DNA of 33,962 nucleotides from Acidimicrobiales bacterium (GTDB lineage: Bacteria > Actinomycetota > Acidimicrobiia > Acidimicrobiales > RAAP-2): the NCBI GenBank assembly GCA_017883135.1, contig JADGOE010000032.1, positions 1-33,962 of the forward strand. The letters are read 5' to 3'. Of the stretch, positions 19,227 through 33,430 are shown in pieces. Numbering within the stretch: the stretch's first letter is position 1; every line of letters starts with the position of its first letter. Below the pieces are notes generated by a model. The model did not search any database. It saw only the letters and a list, made by a program, of their open reading frames with translations, and had not been told where the DNA came from. Made by a program: the position numbers and the translations under genes.

Positions 19227-19237
19227 AGCCGGTATTG

Positions 19238-20836
<1,599 letters not shown>

Positions 20837-21274: not shown

Positions 21275-22537
21275 TCAGTCGTTGATGGGACCGTCGAGCT
21301 CGGGAAGGCTGATGCGTTCCAACCACAGGCCGGGTGCATCCACCTCCGGTGGCGTCGGGAGGTTGCGGGCCGACGACCAAAGCCGCGACAGCCCTTCGTC
21401 CCCAGCACGCTCGAGGACTCCGTCGATGAAGGACCGGCCCCGGTCGACTTGGGTCTGATCGAGGTCGAGGCCGAACAGCGCTCCTGCTGCTTCTTCCCCC
21501 TTGCCCCGTTGGATGCGGCGGCGGTACCACGCCTCGGCCAGCTGGGTGTGGGAGCCGACGAGGTTCCGACCGACCTGGTCGGCCACATGATCGGCGTAGG
21601 CGTCGATGACCACGGCCAGCGCTGTCAGTTGATCGGAAGATCGCCGCGACTCGGGGGTCAGCAGTTCGCCGAGGAGTGCCTCCGGATCGCCGAACATTCC
21701 CTGGAGCGACTCGAGATCCATCCCCCCCGGAGCATCGATGGCATCGGGGTTGCCGAGCCCTCCGAGGCGCGCGGCAAGGTCTTGTTGGGCCGCGGCCGAC
21801 GACACGGCCAGCGCCATCAGCAGCTCTTCCATCCGCGCCCTGATCGGCGGCCTGGTCAACACGGTGTTGGTGGCCAGCTCGCGTGCGCATACCCAGATGA
21901 GGGCCTCCTCCTCGGGCAGGCTCCAGTCCTCGGCAAAGGAGCTGATGTTGGAGGTGACCAGAAGGAGCTCGTCCGAAGGTGCCCAGGGAAGCGCCAACGG
22001 GTACTGGCCGAGTGTCCGCTGGGACAGGTGCCCCACCACTGAACCGACCTGCAGCCCGAAGAACATCGGCCCGATGGCGGTCGCCCACTGACCGATGAGA
22101 CCGGCCAAGCCACCCGTCGGATCATCACCGAGCGGCTCCGGCGGCTCCGGCGGCTGAGCCGGCTCGGTCGGAGGGGCGGAGGCGGTAGACGGGTTGGGTG
22201 CGGCCATGGCCGCGAGCACGGGGCGCCACGACTCGAGTGCGCGGATCGTCCAGTCACCTCTTCCTACGGGCACACAGGTCAATCGGCGTCCATCCGGCGT
22301 GACCGGCATGCCGGTGACCTCGATCACATTGAGCTCGGCCACCCGCGAGAGCTGCTCGACCTGAATCCTCTGGATGGGCTCCACGTTGGGCTCGGTCGCC
22401 CCTCCGGTCGCCACGTTGAGCGCGAACGACCGCGTCATCTCCCATTGGTCGGGAGCGTTGGTCCCGAGCATGTTCATCAGGTCACCGAGCAAGGATTGGA
22501 ATGGGTTTCCCGCGTCCTCGGGTTCGGGCGGTGCCAT
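21275..22537 (-). CDS. DUF2342-family protein with degenerate zinc motif
   Basis: 420 residues. The overall pattern is that of the actinobacterial DUF2342 'zinc-dependent metalloprotease/putative hydrolase' family (e.g. Rv3195): an N-terminal half ending in LSQRTLGQYPLALPW, WVCARELATNTVL in the middle, then DAYADHVADQVGRNLVGSHTQL, RRRIQRGKGEEAAGALFGLDLDQTQVDRG and LPTPPEVDAPGLWLERI at the end. Where relatives have HExxH after WVCL, this one reads RELAT (219-223): both zinc His are lost, Glu220 kept. It is thus probably not a working peptidase. Start ATG at 22537 is supported by a leaderless -10; it lies 9 bp after the pseudo-HtrA gene. Confidence 0.82.
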   Translation of the reverse strand: MAPPEPEDAGNPFQSLLGDLMNMLGTNAPDQWEMTRSFALNVATGGATEPNVEPIQRIQVEQLSRVAELNVIEVTGMPVTPDGRRLTCVPVGRGDWTIRALESWRPVLAAMAAPNPSTASAPPTEPAQPPEPPEPLGDDPTGGLAGLIGQWATAIGPMFFGLQVGSVVGHLSQRTLGQYPLALPWAPSDELLLVTSNISSFAEDWSLPEEEALIWVCARELATNTVLTRPPIRARMEELLMALAVSSAAAQQDLAARLGGLGNPDAIDAPGGMDLESLQGMFGDPEALLGELLTPESRRSSDQLTALAVVIDAYADHVADQVGRNLVGSHTQLAEAWYRRRIQRGKGEEAAGALFGLDLDQTQVDRGRSFIDGVLERAGDEGLSRLWSSARNLPTPPEVDAPGLWLERISLPELDGPIND

Positions 22538-22543
22538 GCCCTC

Positions 22544-22549
22544 ATGCTA
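22544..22549 (-). promoter_or_regulatory. -10 box TAGCAT for the DUF2342 gene, made from the upstream stop codon
   Basis: On the minus strand TAGCAT spans 22549-22544 and ends 6 nt before the ATG at 22537. Its first three bases are the TAG stop of the preceding gene. It fits leaderless transcription. Confidence 0.5.
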
Positions 22550-23905
22550 CGACGATGACTCATCCCCCGGTGCATCGGTCCCCACGGAACCCAGCACGAC
22601 GGAGCTGGTGAGCGTGGTTCCTGCCCGTTGGTAGGTCACGTCCAGCGCAGTTCCGGGTGGGTCGGGATAGAGCCTGGTGCGGAGTTCGGCGATCGAGTGC
22701 ACCTGGTACCCGTCGATCCCGACGACGACATCTCCGGGCTCCAACCCGCCGGCCGCCGCGGGACTGCCACTTCGGATCGCGCTGATGTGGGCACCCTCGG
22801 CGGCCGATGGCCGGGTGGCGGGGAGGGACGAGGTGGTTGACGAAGCACCCGGTGAACCGAGTGCAGGGGTGACGGTGGCCACCACCGGGGAGGTGGTGCT
22901 GTCGCTGCCGGCGACGCCCAACCAACCATGATCCACGGTTCCCGAGGAGACCAGTTGGCGGGCGACGCCCAGTACGACTTCAGCCGGCAGGAAGACCGAC
23001 AGGGTCGACGCCCCTGACGGCATCACTTCTTCGAGAATGCCCGAAACGTCGCCGTTCTTGGCGAGGAGCGGGCACCCGATGTCGAGGGTGGCCAAGGGCG
23101 TGGAGACGACCGTTGCGGCGAAGGAGGAGGTGACAGCCCCGACACTGAGGGGTATGCCCACAGAATGCACGGTTCCGACGTAGGCGCGGGCCAACGCCGT
23201 GAGTGCCCGCGGCCCGGGCTCCATGGCCACTGCCATGACCACCGTCCCGACGGAGAGGTCACCGTCGTTGAAGATGGCCGCCGGCAGGTCATCGGCGATA
23301 CGAAGCACACCTACGCCCGAGTTCCGGTCGACGCCGACCACGGCAGCGGGTTGGCGGGTCCCATTGGGCTCGACGGCAGTGATCGACCTGGCACCGACGA
23401 GGGCCTTGGAGGCGGTGACGATGACGCCTCCCGACTCAGCCACAAGCCCGGTGGTGACGGACGTTCCGGTCCGCCTTACGACGACGAGGGCCACGGTCGA
23501 AGGGCGGATGGAGGTCAGTATGGCCTGCTCGGCAGAGCTGGCCACTGGAGCCATGCCGGCCTCGGTGGTCGGTGCGCCGGTCAACGACCCCACACCCGGG
23601 ATCGTCGACGGTGTGCTCTGGTCGGCCCTGCCCGTGCTGGCCATCACCAGACCGGCGGTCACCAGGACGAGGACGAAGCATACGGTGGCCCCACCGACGA
23701 CCCAGGGCCCCGTTCGCGTATGGCTGAGGGCCGGCGGGGCTCCGTCGAGAGACGACAACGCGTAGCCGGGCACCGACGACGCCGACTCGGACGGATGACG
23801 CCACAGCCGGTCATCCGGCGGGATCCACCCGCGGAACCGGTTGCCCTCGTCGAACCAGTCGTCGTCAGGATCGCCCCCCGACACCTTCTGATCCTCGTCG
23901 TCCAC
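22547..23905 (-). CDS. HtrA-fold PDZ membrane protein lacking the catalytic triad
   Basis: 452 residues from GTG 23905. The N-terminus has an acidic stretch and WIPPDDRLWRHPSE, then one transmembrane helix (~67-90), a degenerate trypsin-like domain (~125-330) and a PDZ domain (~375-450; GSPAAAGGLEPGDVVVGIDG). The expected His site reads VTASKALV (163-170), the Asp site NSGVGVL (195-201) and the Ser site LDIGCPLL (274-281), so all three catalytic residues appear replaced. It may sense or bind misfolded proteins or act as a scaffold. GTG 23905 is chosen because TAACCT ends 7 nt upstream; the longer frame to 24007 would run across the promoter region shared with the divergent mreB. Confidence 0.8.
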   Translation of the reverse strand: MDDEDQKVSGGDPDDDWFDEGNRFRGWIPPDDRLWRHPSESASSVPGYALSSLDGAPPALSHTRTGPWVVGGATVCFVLVLVTAGLVMASTGRADQSTPSTIPGVGSLTGAPTTEAGMAPVASSAEQAILTSIRPSTVALVVVRRTGTSVTTGLVAESGGVIVTASKALVGARSITAVEPNGTRQPAAVVGVDRNSGVGVLRIADDLPAAIFNDGDLSVGTVVMAVAMEPGPRALTALARAYVGTVHSVGIPLSVGAVTSSFAATVVSTPLATLDIGCPLLAKNGDVSGILEEVMPSGASTLSVFLPAEVVLGVARQLVSSGTVDHGWLGVAGSDSTTSPVVATVTPALGSPGASSTTSSLPATRPSAAEGAHISAIRSGSPAAAGGLEPGDVVVGIDGYQVHSIAELRTRLYPDPPGTALDVTYQRAGTTLTSSVVLGSVGTDAPGDESSS

Positions 23906-23912
23906 GGGCCCG

Positions 23913-23918
23913 AGGTTA
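23913..23918 (-). promoter_or_regulatory. -10 box TAACCT for the pseudo-HtrA gene
   Basis: Minus-strand TAACCT (23918-23913) ends 7 nt before GTG 23905 and matches TAnnnT, consistent with a leaderless start. Confidence 0.45.
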
Positions 23919-24015
23919 CTGATGGCGGCATCCTTTTGGGCGTCGCCTCGTCCGATGCGGTGGCCGGCAGGGACGGCGACCGTTGGCTCCACTCCGGCTC
24001 GGGACACCGTGGCCC

Positions 24016-24021
24016 TACGAT
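24016..24021 (+). promoter_or_regulatory. -10 box TACGAT for mreB
   Basis: TACGAT ends 6 nt before GTG 24028. No ribosome binding site is present, so a leaderless transcript is likely. Confidence 0.5.
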
Positions 24022-24027
24022 GACGGG

Positions 24028-25032
24028 GTGGCCCGGGACCTCGCGATCGACCTCGGCACGGCCAACACCCTCGTCTTTGCCAAGGGGCGGGGGATCGTGT
24101 TGAACCAGCCGACGGTCATCGCCCTCAACACCAGGACCCGCGAGGTTCTGGCAGTGGGCAACGAAGCGTGGCAGATGATCGGGCGGACCCCTGGCTACAT
24201 CGTGGCGGTCAGGCCACTGCGTGAGGGTGCGATCACCGACTTCGACATCACCGAGCGAATGATCCGGCTCCTCCTGCGACGAGCCGGTGTCACCAAGTTC
24301 AATCGACCCAGGGTGCTGATCTGCGTACCATCGGCGATCACCTCGGTGGAGCGCCGCGCAGTCAAAGAGGCAGCCCGCCGTGCCGGCGCGTCGGCGGCCC
24401 ACCTGATCGAGCAGCCCATGGCGGCAGCCATCGGGGCCGGCCTCGACATCCACGAGCCGGTGGGCAACATGGTGGTCGACGTGGGTGGTGGCACCACGGA
24501 GACAGCGGTCATCTCGCTCGGCGGAGTAGTCGCCTCGAGGGCAATTCGTTGCGGCGGATTCGACATGGATGCGGCCATCCAGCAGTACGTGCGCCACGAG
24601 CACGGGATCGCCATCGGCGAACGCACCGGCGAGGAGCTGAAGCTGGCCATCGGCTCCGCGCTCCCGTACACCGACGAAGTGAAGGCGGAGGTCAGGGGTC
24701 GCGAGGTGACCACCGGTCTCCCCAAGACGGTGGTCCTGTCGCCCGAAGAAGTGAGGTACGCGCTGGCCGAGCAGGTCGACTTGATCGTCGACACCGTGAT
24801 CGGCTGCCTCTCCGAGTCGCCGCCCGAGCTGGCCCAGGACATCATCTACGAGGGCATCCACCTGGTGGGTGGGGGAGCCTTGCTCCGGGGCCTGGCCAAC
24901 CGGTTGGCCGACGAGACCGAAGTGCCGGTCCACCTGGTGGCCACCCCGCTCGAGTGTGTGGTGCTCGGCGCCGGAATGTGCCTCGACTCCTTCGACAGCC
25001 TCCGGCCGATCTTCGCCGCGGCGGAGTCCTGA
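24028..25032 (+). CDS. mreB: Rod-shape determining protein MreB (actin homologue)
   Basis: 334 residues of the bacterial actin fold. Phosphate-1 loop DLGTANTLVF at the N-terminus, PTVIALN, CVPSAITSVERRAVKEA, HLIEQPMAAAIGAGLD, the phosphate-2 loop VVDVGGGTTETAVISLGG, GGFDMDAAI, and IHLVGGGALLRGLANRL near the end all match MreB/Mbl. It polymerises under the membrane to guide wall synthesis. It stands alone here: no mreC, mreD, rodA or pbp2 next to it, unlike the usual mreBCD order. Start is GTG 24028. Divergent from the pseudo-HtrA gene and convergent with a HEAT-repeat gene. Confidence 0.95.
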   Translation: MARDLAIDLGTANTLVFAKGRGIVLNQPTVIALNTRTREVLAVGNEAWQMIGRTPGYIVAVRPLREGAITDFDITERMIRLLLRRAGVTKFNRPRVLICVPSAITSVERRAVKEAARRAGASAAHLIEQPMAAAIGAGLDIHEPVGNMVVDVGGGTTETAVISLGGVVASRAIRCGGFDMDAAIQQYVRHEHGIAIGERTGEELKLAIGSALPYTDEVKAEVRGREVTTGLPKTVVLSPEEVRYALAEQVDLIVDTVIGCLSESPPELAQDIIYEGIHLVGGGALLRGLANRLADETEVPVHLVATPLECVVLGAGMCLDSFDSLRPIFAAAES

Positions 25033-25069
25033 GCGCCCCGGGTCCCCGGTCGACAAAGGGCAGAGGTGC

Positions 25070-25690
25070 TCACTCGACGGCCAAGAGGTCCTCGGCCACC
25101 TGGCGGACCTGCCAGTCGCGATCGTCGAGGCAGTGGCGGAGTGCGGCCTCGACCGTGGGCCCCTCGAACGCGGCCAGGGCGACCGCCGCCCGGCGCCGGA
25201 TGGATGGCTTGTCCCCGAACGCTTCGAGTACGGCCGGCAGGCCGGCGGGATCGCCGATCGCCCCGAGGGCGGCCACCGCGGCCTCCCGACAGAGGGGGTC
25301 GGAGTGTCCCGACGCGGTGGAGGCCAACTCGGTGAGTGCGGGTACCAACGACCGATCCTCCCGTTCGCCCGATGCCCAGGCGGCCATCTCCACCACCGAG
25401 GAGTCGGTGTCGTCCAAGGCGGCGGCGAGGTCCACGTTAGGGAACCGCGCCGCCAATTCGCAGGCTCGACGCCGCACCAGGGGAACCTCGTCCTCCAGAC
25501 CTCGGCGGAGGTCGCCGTCGGTCAGGACCCCGAGCCGGTCGAGGGCACCGAGGGCGGTGGCCCGGACCGACGCAGAACCGTCGGCCATCCCAGCGCGCGC
25601 GGTGGGCTCGTCTCCGAGGTGGCCGGAGAGCGCCACGGTCCGTCGGCGCTCGGTGACGCTCCGAACTGGAGGTTCCGTGGCAGGCTTCAC
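25070..25690 (-). CDS. HEAT-repeat protein
   Basis: About 206 residues made of helical repeats: SVRATALGALDRLG, LVRRRACELAARFP, SVVEMAAWASGE, LCREAAVAALGAIGDPAGLPAVLEA, SIRRRAAVALAAFE, and WQVRQVAEDLLA at the end. These HEAT/PBS-lyase-like repeats serve protein binding; no catalytic residues are seen. The GTG at 25690 is chosen because repeats begin soon after; upstream codons are antisense to the divergent PDZ-Lon gene, whose ATG is at 25700, leaving only 9 bp between the two starts. Partner unknown. Confidence 0.78.
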   Translation of the reverse strand: MKPATEPPVRSVTERRRTVALSGHLGDEPTARAGMADGSASVRATALGALDRLGVLTDGDLRRGLEDEVPLVRRRACELAARFPNVDLAAALDDTDSSVVEMAAWASGEREDRSLVPALTELASTASGHSDPLCREAAVAALGAIGDPAGLPAVLEAFGDKPSIRRRAAVALAAFEGPTVEAALRHCLDDRDWQVRQVAEDLLAVE

Positions 25691-25699
25691 CTCACCACT

Positions 25700-26926
25700 A
25701 TGACCGACGACAGCGACATGCCGCCGGCCGGCCCTGGCCCCTCGGCCACGGAACCTTCCGGCGGCGCCATGGCGCCTCCGTCCCCCGTACCTGGAGGAGC
25801 TCCGGCTCAGGTTCCCGAACTCCACTACGAGGCGACCGAACAGGAGCTGACCGGCACGACGGCCCGGAACAGGAGGCTGTGGCCGTGGGTACTTCTCGTC
25901 ATCGTTGTGATCGGACTGGCCGTGGCCTCGCGGATCAACCTCGACTACTACGCCGTTCAGCCTGGTACTGCGCAGTCCGTGCAGCAGTTCATCACCGTGC
26001 CGCCCGCCAAGAGCCATCCGATCAGCCATCCGGTGTTGTTGACCGATGTCGAGATCGGGCGGGTCTCGGCGCTTTCCTATCTGTTCTACAAGCTGCAGAG
26101 CAACACCACACTCGAACCGCTGGACAACGTCACCGGTGGGATGCCACCCTCCGAACTGGACGCGCAAGGGCAGCTCGAGATGTCCCAGGCCGAGTCCTAC
26201 GCGAAGACCGCAGCACTGCGGCAGCTCGGCTACACGGTGACAGCCACCCCCGTGGGCGCGGTGGTGTCCGGAACCTTCATCGGCACGCCGGCCTACCGCG
26301 CCCTGAACGTGGGTGATGTGATCTCTTCCGTCGACGGGGTGGTGACCCCAACTGCGGTGAGCCTGATGACGACCTTGAGGAAGCACCACTCGGGAGAGAC
26401 CGTCAGCCTCAGCGTGCACCGGGGGGGCACGGGTACCCCGACCTCGGTGCCGGTGACGCTCAAGACCGCGGTGGTGGACCTCGGTGGCGGCTACACGGTG
26501 ACGGTGGACATGGGCATCGTTCCCCAGGACCAGGTCGACTACACCTACCCCTTTCCGGTCACCATCAACGTCACCAACATCGGAGGCCCGTCGGCCGGGC
26601 TGGCGATGACCCTCGGCGTGATCGACGCGCTGTCCGAGGGGTCACTCACCGGCGGTCGCACGGTGGCCGCCACCGGCACCATCGACAGCTCCGGCAAGGT
26701 GGGCGACGTGGGTGGAGTACCTCAGAAGACCGTCGCGGTGGAGAACGCCGACGCTTCGATCTTCCTCGTTCCGCCTGGGGAGTACAAGGACGCGATGTCC
26801 AAGGATCGATCCGGCCTGAAGATCTATGCGGTCTCGACGCTCGATCAGGCCTTGGCGGTGCTGGCCGCCCACGGGGGCACCGTGCCGGCGGCTCTGACCG
26901 GTCACCTGCCGCCCGTTGCGGGATGA
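25700..26926 (+). CDS. PDZ-Lon (YlbL-type) membrane serine protease
   Basis: 408 residues: a Pro-rich cytoplasmic start (1-50), one transmembrane helix (~61-77), a helical region with SQAESYAKTAALRQLGY, a PDZ domain (~175-260; ALNVGDVISSVDGV) and a C-terminal Lon (S16) protease domain with Ser298 in GGPSAGLAMTL and Lys343 in GVPQKTVAVENA. The Ser-Lys dyad is intact, but no AAA+ domain is present, so it is not ATP-driven. Same family as Rv3194c, which in mycobacteria sits next to UPF0182 Rv3193c, as nearly here. The bacillary YlbL is linked to degrading a cell-division inhibitor. The start could be 25700 or 25718; no clear ribosome binding site is seen. Confidence 0.9.
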   Translation: MTDDSDMPPAGPGPSATEPSGGAMAPPSPVPGGAPAQVPELHYEATEQELTGTTARNRRLWPWVLLVIVVIGLAVASRINLDYYAVQPGTAQSVQQFITVPPAKSHPISHPVLLTDVEIGRVSALSYLFYKLQSNTTLEPLDNVTGGMPPSELDAQGQLEMSQAESYAKTAALRQLGYTVTATPVGAVVSGTFIGTPAYRALNVGDVISSVDGVVTPTAVSLMTTLRKHHSGETVSLSVHRGGTGTPTSVPVTLKTAVVDLGGGYTVTVDMGIVPQDQVDYTYPFPVTINVTNIGGPSAGLAMTLGVIDALSEGSLTGGRTVAATGTIDSSGKVGDVGGVPQKTVAVENADASIFLVPPGEYKDAMSKDRSGLKIYAVSTLDQALAVLAAHGGTVPAALTGHLPPVAG

Positions 26927-26962: not shown

Positions 26963-28771
26963 ATGCCCGAGGAACGCCGGATGACCATTACTTCCTCACC
27001 CCACCTGGCACCCGATGATGTTGCCCGTCACACGTTCGCCTCGGTGCGGCGGGGCTTCGATCCCACCGAGGTCCGCGACTACCTCGAATCGATCGCCATC
27101 GGACTCAGGGGAATTGCCGATCGTGAACGCCAGCTGCTCGAGGAGTTGGCCGACGCCGAGCACCGGGCGGCCAATCCGGTCCTCGACGAGCCCACGCTGT
27201 CAGCGGCGCTGGGTCACGAGACCGGCCGGGTGATCCACAGCGCGCACGAGGTCGCCGCTGAGATGTTGGCCAGGGCCGAGGCGGAGGCGAACCGGCTCAT
27301 CACCGAAGCAAACGAGGATGCCGAACAGAGCAGCGCCCGTGTTGAAGCCCAGGCCGCGGAGCAGAGAGCCCAGGTCGAGGCGGAGGTCAACGAGCTCCGC
27401 GAGCGGACCCACCAGCAGGTGTCGGCGGCACAGGAGTCAGCGCACCGCGCGGCCGAGGAGCTGCTCACTCAGGCCCGACAGGAGTGTCGGGCCATGGTCG
27501 ACGAGGCGCAGCAGCTGAGGGCGCGGGTTCTGGCCGACCTGTCCCGGCGCCGGAAGGTCCTCCACGCGCAGATCGAGCAGCTGCGCGCAGGGCGCGAGCG
27601 GCTGGCCGAGACGATCAACGACGTTCGCCGCTCGGTCGATGTCATCGCCGATGATCTCTTCACCGCAGAGGACGACGCCCGGCTCGCAGCCGAGGCCGCC
27701 GGGCGCGAGGTGGTGAGCCGTCCAGACGACGGCACGCCCGAGGAGTTGGCCGCGATGCTGCTGACCGACGAGGCCGAGGCTGCAGCCCGCCCGGCACAGC
27801 CCGACGGCCCTGCTGGCGACGTCCCGCCCGGGGGAACAGCTACCGCGGATGCGGACGAACGGGGGGAGGCTCCGGGTGAGAGCACCACCGGCGCGACCGA
27901 GGCGCCGCCCGCAGAGGCGCCGCCCGCAGAGTCCGTCGATGCTCTGTTCGCCAAAATCCGGGCGGCACGGGACGAGCCCGAGGCCGGCGGCCGCGATCAG
28001 GATCCAGGGCCGGACACGGCTGATGCGGCGGGGTCGGAGGTCGGGCCCGAGGAGACCGACGACGAATCGGGCGACGAATCGGGCGACGAGCCACCTGAGG
28101 AACAGAGCCCGGTCGTGGCGCGTCGCGACGAGCTGGTCGACCCGATCGTCAACGCTCTGGCCCGACGTCTGAAGCGAACCCTCCAGGACGATCAGAACGA
28201 TCTCCTCGACCGTCTGCGTTCCAACGGATCCCACTGGTCGATCGGCCTCCTCCCCGAGGAGACCGAACACGTCGCCGCGTACGCCACGGCCGCGGTACCC
28301 GCGTTGGAGGAGGCGTCCGAGGCCGGGGTCTCCTTTGCCGGACCGGGTTCGGCCCATGGCCCTGACGCCGATGCCCTGTTGGGAATCGCCCACGAACTGG
28401 CCACCGCGCTGGTGGGCCCGCTGCGGCGCCGCCTGTCCGGTGGTGAGGAGCTCGCCGGTGCAGAGGAGTCGGTGGTGGCCGAGTACGTCGGCTCGGCATT
28501 CAGGGAATGGAAGGGCGAGCGCATCGGGCGACTGGCCGGCGACCATGTGGTGGCCGCGTTCTCGCTGGGCTCGATGTCGGCAATCGAAGGCGAGTCGTCT
28601 GCCCAGCTCAAGTGGGTGGCCGTCCCCAGCTCGGGTGACGAACCCTGTCCCGACTGCGAGGACAACGGGCTGAACGGGTCGCAACGACCGGGTGAGGCTT
28701 TCCCTACCGGGCACGCTCATCCCCCTGCCCACCCCGGGTGTCGGTGCGTCGTCGTGCGCTCGGCCACCTAG
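26963..28771 (+). CDS. DivIVA-domain coiled-coil protein with phage-head-like Cys/His C-terminus
   Basis: 602 residues. The N-terminus (~10-60; LAPDDVARHTFASVRRGFDP, then EVRDYLESI) is a DivIVA domain, which binds curved membranes at poles and septa. A long Ala/Glu/Arg/Gln coiled coil follows (~60-240), then an acidic, Pro-rich linker (~250-375) with short repeats (EAPPAEAPPAE; DESGDESGDE). A folded C-terminal domain (~385-602) ends with PCPDCEDNGLNG, FPTGHAHPPAHPGCRC. This C-x2-C ... GH-x-HPP-x-HPxCRC tail is like that of phage Mu gpF/minor head proteins. No phage genes surround it, so it is a chromosomal fusion. It may organise polar growth or division. 9 bp separate it from the UPF0182 gene. 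Confidence 0.82.
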   Translation: MPEERRMTITSSPHLAPDDVARHTFASVRRGFDPTEVRDYLESIAIGLRGIADRERQLLEELADAEHRAANPVLDEPTLSAALGHETGRVIHSAHEVAAEMLARAEAEANRLITEANEDAEQSSARVEAQAAEQRAQVEAEVNELRERTHQQVSAAQESAHRAAEELLTQARQECRAMVDEAQQLRARVLADLSRRRKVLHAQIEQLRAGRERLAETINDVRRSVDVIADDLFTAEDDARLAAEAAGREVVSRPDDGTPEELAAMLLTDEAEAAARPAQPDGPAGDVPPGGTATADADERGEAPGESTTGATEAPPAEAPPAESVDALFAKIRAARDEPEAGGRDQDPGPDTADAAGSEVGPEETDDESGDESGDEPPEEQSPVVARRDELVDPIVNALARRLKRTLQDDQNDLLDRLRSNGSHWSIGLLPEETEHVAAYATAAVPALEEASEAGVSFAGPGSAHGPDADALLGIAHELATALVGPLRRRLSGGEELAGAEESVVAEYVGSAFREWKGERIGRLAGDHVVAAFSLGSMSAIEGESSAQLKWVAVPSSGDEPCPDCEDNGLNGSQRPGEAFPTGHAHPPAHPGCRCVVVRSAT

Positions 28772-32245: not shown

Positions 32246-33430
32246 TCAGCCCGTTTGATCGGGAAGGAGCCCTTCCTCATCTTCAGTTCCGAAGATGAGG
32301 GCTGCAACCTGTTCCGCTGCTGCCTCATGCAGCGAGGGGACAGGGTGGGTGTAGATGTCGAGGGTGAAGGCAACGTTTGCATGCCCAAGACGCTGCGAGA
32401 TGACAATCGACGGTACTCCCGCTGCCAGCCCCAACGTTGCGTACGTGTGCCGCAGGTCATGCAAGCGGATCCGGGGTAGTCCCAACTTGGCGACGGTTCG
32501 ATCGAAACACTGACTGAAGTAGTCAGGGTGCGTCGGTGAGCCGTCGAGTTTTGGAAAGACCAGATCGTGATCGATGTACGCTGCGCCAATCGCGGCACGT
32601 TCCCCGAGTTGGCGAATCCTGTGAGCCTCGAGCACTGCGACCGTGGTGTCGTCCAAGGCAAGTAGCCGACGGCCCTTGGCAGTCTTCGGTGTGCCAAACA
32701 TCAGCTCGTAGTTCACGCTGATGACCGTCTGGCGAACCGCGAGATGCTTGGTGACCGAGTCGATGTCCGACCAGCGAACGCCGAGTACCTCGCCGCGACG
32801 CATGCCCGTGGTCGCAGCCAAGGTGTAGGCAGCTTCCAGTCGGTGGCCACTGAGGCCCTTCAGGAAGATGCGGACCTGATTGCCATTCCACGTGCGTAAG
32901 CCTTCGGTCCTAGAACGATTGATCCGGGGTGGATCTGCGGCGTCGGCGACGTTCCGGTGAACGAGTTGCTTGCGCTGTGCATCCTTGAGCGCCTTATGGA
33001 GCAGGTTGTGAATCGATCTCACCGTCTTGGGCGATAACCCTCCGGGCTTGCCGACACGGCCGTTACTGAGCAGTTCGACATAGAGCCGATCGAGATGGCC
33101 ATGAGATAGCTGCTGAAGCTTGATACCCCCGAGCGTCGGCATGACGTGAAGCGTGATCTCGCACTGGTACCGGTGCCAGGTACTCGGCCGAATCGAGTGT
33201 TGGACGATGGGGAGCCACTGGTCATTGAGGTACTCACCTAGCGTCAGCTTCGTTGGTTCGACGTAGTCCCCGGTCTGCACCGATGTGACCGTGCTGCTCA
33301 GGTACCGCTGAGCCTCCTCCTTGGTCCCAAAGCCGCCCTTGGAGCGCTGGCGCCTCTTCCCCGTGCTGTCTGGCATGTAATAGTAGGCGGTCCAGGTTGA
33401 GCCGCGTTTCTTGATGAAGCTTCCTTGCAT
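32246..33430 (-). CDS. int: Tyrosine recombinase / integrase
   Basis: 394 residues. N-terminal arm-binding domain (~1-60; GTKEEAQRYL), SAM-like core-binding domain (~62-165; LTLGEYLNDQWLP) and C-terminal catalytic domain with all active residues: Arg211 (TGMRRGEV), Lys249 (TPKTAKGRR), His324 and Arg327 (LHDLRHTYA), His350 (RLGHAN) and the nucleophile Tyr360 (LDIYTH). It should insert the element at the adjacent tRNA-fMet and, with the excisionase, remove it. It lies two bases past the xis stop, so the genes are one operon read towards the tRNA. Confidence 0.96.
   Translation of the reverse strand: MQGSFIKKRGSTWTAYYYMPDSTGKRRQRSKGGFGTKEEAQRYLSSTVTSVQTGDYVEPTKLTLGEYLNDQWLPIVQHSIRPSTWHRYQCEITLHVMPTLGGIKLQQLSHGHLDRLYVELLSNGRVGKPGGLSPKTVRSIHNLLHKALKDAQRKQLVHRNVADAADPPRINRSRTEGLRTWNGNQVRIFLKGLSGHRLEAAYTLAATTGMRRGEVLGVRWSDIDSVTKHLAVRQTVISVNYELMFGTPKTAKGRRLLALDDTTVAVLEAHRIRQLGERAAIGAAYIDHDLVFPKLDGSPTHPDYFSQCFDRTVAKLGLPRIRLHDLRHTYATLGLAAGVPSIVISQRLGHANVAFTLDIYTHPVPSLHEAAAEQVAALIFGTEDEEGLLPDQTG

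Follow-up and report, generated by a model that had tools for sequence, protein, structure and literature searches.

An HtrA-like membrane protein without a catalytic triad, encoded beside a second MreB in Acidimicrobiia

The window analysed here, a stretch of 33,962 nucleotides on contig JADGOE010000032.1 of an Acidimicrobiales bacterium, encodes two relatives of the HtrA proteases, one of which lacks all three catalytic residues, and this raises the question of what such a protein is kept for. Its gene lies at 22547..23905 (-) and gives 452 amino acids when read from an inner GTG at 23905; at its longest the open reading frame covers 22547-24007 (-), and the start codon is uncertain, with no ribosome-binding site that is clear by eye before 23905. 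Sequence, profile and predicted fold together identify the product as an inactive HtrA-like membrane protein. A motif, WIPPDDRLWRHPSE (residues 27-40; 23786..23827 (-)), which stands out in the sequence and by its conservation in syntenic genes, is followed by a membrane helix (residues 73-89; 23639..23689 (-)), helical in the model and hydrophobic in sequence, by a trypsin-fold domain without triad (residues 123-326; 22928..23539 (-)), delimited from the AlphaFold2 model and its structural matches, and by a PDZ domain (22583..22927 (-); Pfam PDZ_2, 2.1e-12, and model). The preliminary description of this DNA had listed the PDZ domain, the helix and WIPPDDRLWRHPSE as retained, and all three are present. 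Judged from its sequence, the protein probably crosses the membrane once, with a putatively cytoplasmic N terminus, a topology that fits the retention just ahead of the helix of Arg64, an arginine in 76 of the 85 inactive relatives described below. The WLG carboxylate-loop sequence of the PDZ domain occupies residues 328-330 (Gly330 is kept in 81/85 and Leu329 in 79/85 of the same relatives), and the model has a low-confidence insert within this domain at residues of about 340-369.

The relationship to HtrA is evident at the level of profile and of fold. The NCBIfam profile degP_htrA_DO matches the protein at E 8.2e-26 (90.9 bits), far short of the curated cut-off of 416 bits, which the active HtrA of the window likewise fails to reach (262.3 bits), and DegQ (4a8a) matches it at E 7.8e-20. 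The Pfam scan returned the PDZ domain and no trypsin model; at E 1 it gave only PDZ and DUF6288, and no helix-turn-helix domain. The AlphaFold2 model, computed from a 54-sequence alignment (of our alignments, A1 comprises 23 selected sequences and A2 comprises 54), has a mean pLDDT of 79.5, with 259 of the 452 residues at or above 90. Superposition on DegP, the check that had been proposed for an HtrA fold, gave the best structural match (3otp_D; VIA Z 33.3, rmsd 2.5 over 286 residues), while Foldseek listed 8f0a at E 1.1e-23, DegP and DegQ being the best solved matches to the model. A trypsin-like fold followed by a PDZ domain, the arrangement of the HtrA/Do (S1C) family, is therefore found in this protein by profile and model, and the claimed fold is upheld.

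The catalytic sites are another matter. On alignment with the HtrA at 19235..20836 (+), whose H252, D283 and S366 motifs are intact (Pfam Trypsin_2, 5.1e-30; NCBIfam; alignment), the His site is taken by Lys167 (23405..23407 (-)), the Asp site by Gly197 (23315..23317 (-)) and the Ser site by Ile276 (23078..23080 (-)). The replacement of the whole triad had been read earlier from three short site strings, all of which we find in the protein. Because it has no His-Asp-Ser triad, it is to be regarded as a non-peptidase homologue, not as an HtrA protease, and the reading of an inactive HtrA at the membrane is correct.

To place this protein among its relatives, we drew on two samples. A search of 61 genomes (its own and 60 relatives) gave matches in 59, from which 50 loci were taken, the window included; 47 of them hold a syntenic HtrA-like gene, meaning one that precedes a Zincin_2 gene or abuts an mreB-like gene, and the other three (L044, L045, L048), which have none, are outside the 47. 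A motif-based scan of contigs yielded 339 stretches and 250 relatives, and the best 80 of these 250 were analysed as loci; their titles name Acidimicrobiia or actinobacterial MAGs, except for one "bacterium" and two "Acidobacteria", and several end early at contig ends. The 98-row alignment consists of the window protein, the best 80 of 250 and 17 other syntenic WRHP[S/A]E genes that are not copies, 7 syntenic genes with RxW[L/T]HPSE being excluded. The strict motif is present in the 80 loci and in the alignment by construction and proves nothing there, a restriction that does not touch gene order.

Triad loss is the rule in this family and more than chance, since the full triad is absent in 85 of the 98 aligned members and His-Asp-Ser is found in 13. 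Among the 85, all three residues are lost in 49, the Asp alone is kept in 28, the Ser alone in 4, Asp and Ser in 3 and the His alone in 1, and as many as 58 different triplets occupy the catalytic positions. The serine site is unconstrained: its column exceeds 98.9% of the 367 columns in variability, and the residues flanking it are also among the most variable. The His site exceeds 66% of columns, and the Asp site, exceeding 22%, is moderately variable, with Gly in 45/85 and Asp in 31/85 inactive relatives. The protein as a whole is under purifying selection, with dN/dS of 0.17-0.43, by a simple counting estimate, in nine close inactive pairs (three of them inside one trio) and 0.21 in one intact pair. 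Together with the triad states and the variable catalytic columns, these values indicate that selection holds the protein and not its active site. As to how often the triad was lost, inactive rows form a single group in 0 of 200 bootstrap trees of 46 rows (chosen from 107), where 5 changes are needed, and the trees overall require 5 to 6 changes of triad state. Repeated loss is favoured by these sequence trees over a single loss and not proven, since the AU test does not formally reject the latter (p 0.057), and the starred branches compel no more than one change.

Of all features of the family, the motif and the membrane helix vary least. RxWxHP[S/A]E precedes the helix in all 47 syntenic genes, 40 of them with the WRHP form and 7 with Leu or Thr for that Arg, and this count was not selected for the motif, as the set had been picked by whole-protein match and position. 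In the organism's own genome the RxWRHP pattern has 11 DNA matches against 8 for a reversed control, and reading the 11 shows the gene of the inactive HtrA to be the only in-frame RxWRHPSE. Across a class sample of 198 genomes the strict motif occurs in 29 and the control in 0. Among 20 MreB2 genomes without the strict pattern, 14 have an HtrA-family gene beside MreB2, with a looser motif in 13 of the 14, and the HMM found no family gene at the other six of these 20 loci. A further 14 genomes of the window's own taxonomic family, several of them small, have the gene in 12, with W-x-H-P-[S/A]-E in 11 of the 12, while it was not found beside MreB2 in two. Inspection of open reading frames in seven gaps at MreB2 loci lacking the family gene turned up no clear candidate. 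Outside the class, the looser motif matched in 7 of 296 genomes of the phylum and the reversed control in a similar number; three of the seven matches adjoin an mreB-like gene, the remaining four resemble noise, and we therefore claim no spread of the motif beyond the class.

Parts of the protein other than the motif and helix can be lost altogether. Two relatives among those 12 from the window's taxonomic family, one of 219 amino acids (L204:1408-2064 (-)) and a 250-amino-acid open reading frame (L197:1-750 (+)), have motif, helix and PDZ domain and no trypsin-fold domain: the family profile matches just their motif-helix part and PDZ, and Pfam finds PDZ and no trypsin domain. Conversely, L166, L167 and L180 have the motif and a weak trypsin domain (Trypsin_2; under the cut-off in L166) without a PDZ match. 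Enzyme site, trypsin domain and PDZ domain are each dispensable somewhere in the family. A 93-amino-acid open reading frame beside MreB2 in L169 (3000-3278 (-)) has RTWRHPTEI without membrane helix or protease part, and could represent a remnant or a disrupted gene.

Across a divergent intergenic region beside the gene (23906..24027), 122 bp long if both GTG starts are right, lies an MreB gene at 24028..25032 (+) (Pfam MreB_Mbl, 4.9e-130), here called MreB2 and by adjacency a candidate partner. It is the second MreB of this organism, since another contig carries a canonical mreB and, after it, mreC, an open reading frame without Pfam match and a PBP2-like gene; G000:C80:9030-10070, within a frame of 627 amino acids, gives a weak third match of MreB/actin-like type (70.4 bits). 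On the other side, 9 bp downstream and on the same strand, is a gene for a Zincin_2 protein (21275..22537 (-); Pfam PF10103, 8.2e-59), and this one gene separates the inactive HtrA from the active one, which is on the other strand; the proximity of the two HtrAs pointed out in the preliminary description is thus real. Further along are a DivIVA-domain gene (26963-28771; Pfam) and a gene for a phage-type integrase (32246-33430 (-)). A HEAT-repeat open reading frame (25070-26419 (-)) overlaps, on the opposite strand, a long YlbL/Lon-type one (24869-26926 (+)), the true start of which probably lies further in.

These neighbours differ in constancy. The divergent mreB-like gene adjoins the family gene in 46 of the 47 syntenic cases, the sole miss being at the contig end of a 3.3-kb contig, and among the best 80 of 250 loci it is found on the opposite strand, no farther than 1577 bp from the motif, in 79, the missing case being that same contig. 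It also stands beside the strict motif in 29 of 29 genomes of the class sample, 28 of which have, by positions, a close relative of the window's MreB alongside, and G224 a more diverged one. In the best 80 of 250 loci, Zincin_2 is nearby in 70 (no more than 300 bp away in 49 and no more than 30 bp away in 39), a YlbL-type gene is present in 54 and another HtrA in 17. In loci of other genomes that cover everything between the gene and FTCD, the mreB-like gene is present in 22/22 and the HtrA neighbour in 9/22. The active HtrA is thus a facultative neighbour, and we rejected it as a conserved partner on the strength of these last counts (9/22, and 17 of the best 80 of 250). A Zincin_2 gene within 300 bp accompanies 48 of 70 inactive members and 1 of 10 intact-triad members in the best 80 of 250 loci (for instance L064 and L021 of G002), a link that may reflect shared ancestry only.

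What could such a protein do? The preliminary description had offered a receptor or a regulator of proteolysis, and a membrane receptor or anchor is our best guess too. We give about an even chance to the view that this is a repurposed, membrane-anchored HtrA, kept as a non-enzymatic anchor or receptor whose cytoplasmic motif docks a partner, most likely MreB2. The extracytoplasmic trypsin-fold and PDZ domains would bind something without cutting it, the usual ligands of PDZ domains being C-terminal peptides, and the RxWxHP[S/A]E segment would dock a partner inside the cell, most likely the actin-like MreB2, whose gene is the divergent neighbour. In this way the inactive HtrA would couple MreB2 both to the membrane and to a signal from outside the cytoplasm, a task that RodZ performs in a different manner for canonical MreB. 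MreB2 is the first candidate because it is the most constant neighbour, and its identification as the partner, taken by itself, is a tentative step with the chances somewhat against it: the proximity may stem from a shared promoter region or a frozen gene order, the mreB-like gene also occurs without the family gene, and Zincin_2 and YlbL-type genes are nearby as well.

Other readings draw on some of the same observations. Regulation of the active HtrA, the second half of the earlier suggestion, is possible and not favoured, given an HtrA neighbour in 9/22 covered loci against 22/22 for the mreB-like gene; it would make the protein a regulatory subunit that forms mixed oligomers with its catalytic neighbour or presents substrates to it, which we consider unlikely. 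In its favour, HtrAs are oligomeric, one with an intact triad is at hand in the window, and such genomes hold HtrAs elsewhere (in this one a second at G000:C36). In the account of MamO and MamE in PMC4794232, MamO is an inactive HtrA that promotes proteolysis by an active one; this role, as described there, relies on a C-terminal transporter domain that the window protein lacks. Also against a regulatory subunit are the location of the conserved motif on the presumed cytoplasmic side, where the catalytic domain of an HtrA is not expected, and the two relatives, L204 and L197, that lack the domain which would form the trimer. Rather unlikely, too, is that the motif docks the Zincin_2 or the DivIVA-domain protein, the mreB-like gene being a mere divergent neighbour. 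The tight spacing of the Zincin_2 gene, at 9 bp here and within 30 bp in the 39 loci counted above, and the presence of a DivIVA-domain gene in the window speak for it, and GpsB, a DivIVA relative, offers a precedent, being docked by short cytoplasmic segments of cell-wall enzymes; its binding of cytoplasmic mini-domains is described in PMC6335420. A close Zincin_2 gene, however, goes with inactive and hardly with intact-triad members, whereas the two groups do not differ in their motif.

That the protein still cuts with other residues is very improbable. Cys278 (23072-23074 (-)), two residues past the serine site, is shared by 7 of the 8 nearest sequences (14/85 overall), and D193 never varies in the aligned set; but this holds just as much for the 13 intact-triad members, so D193 is probably structural, and the surroundings of the serine site are among the most variable positions. 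The only histidine of the protease domain, H247, occurs in 2/85 inactive relatives, among which no histidine of this domain is conserved, and a working triad of other residues, named beforehand as the finding that would overturn the inactive reading, is thereby made unlikely. A decaying pseudogene or an artefact of gene calling would account for the lost catalytic residues and is scarcely credible, given that reading frames are open and synteny is preserved throughout the order, that dN/dS is low and that the fold is confidently predicted.

The preferred reading, that of a non-enzymatic membrane anchor or receptor, can be set beside known systems. With DegS, DegP and DegQ the protein shares the trypsin fold and PDZ domain, and its anchoring by one helix recalls DegS; it differs from them in lacking the catalytic His, Asp and Ser, in the RxWxHP[S/A]E carried by its long, putatively cytoplasmic N terminus, and in scoring far under the curated NCBIfam cut-offs. 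RodZ, which spans the membrane once, has been proposed as a link between MreB and the extracytoplasmic side. The window protein would resemble it in both respects, its own MreB link being putative, whereas it has no helix-turn-helix domain in the Pfam scan and its extracytoplasmic part is HtrA-like. MamO, as characterised in PMC4794232, is likewise an HtrA relative that lost proteolysis and was kept for a non-catalytic role, and inactive HtrA copies are described there as having arisen more than once in magnetotactic bacteria. In contrast to the family studied here, with its mreB-like neighbour and cytoplasmic motif, MamO has a transporter domain and is a metal-binding protein whose gene lies among those of the magnetosome. 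The metal site of MamO is a surface di-histidine; of histidines in the protease domain, the 85 inactive relatives described above conserve none (H247 in 2/85). At a threshold of E 1 the NCBIfam MamO profile gives no match to the window protein; 27 of 54 members of the family match it at E 0.001 or lower, 5.8e-17 being the strongest.

Inactive homologues are not new as such, a 2008 survey having counted 42 putative ones among 966 prokaryotic serine proteases, by the totals it states (PMC2605481). In the open-licence literature, preprints aside, we found no paper whose title or abstract describes this actinobacterial family, no occurrence of the string WRHPSE in what was searched, and no paper joining Acidimicrobiia and MreB; as far as these searches go, the family is new, and so are the motif it carries and the association with a second MreB. 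In the widest form of our proposal, which we put forward as doubtful, a former HtrA would have become in Acidimicrobiia the dedicated membrane anchor or sensor of a stand-alone second MreB through RxWxHP[S/A]E, eroding stepwise from intact triad to dead fold to domain loss while the motif was kept. If true, this would bring together two seldom-connected fields, envelope proteostasis and the actin-like cytoskeleton, and would provide a bacterial pseudoprotease lineage with intact, dead and domain-less forms at one syntenic place, and the short motif would give a handle on the purpose of the second MreB in these mostly uncultured actinobacteria.
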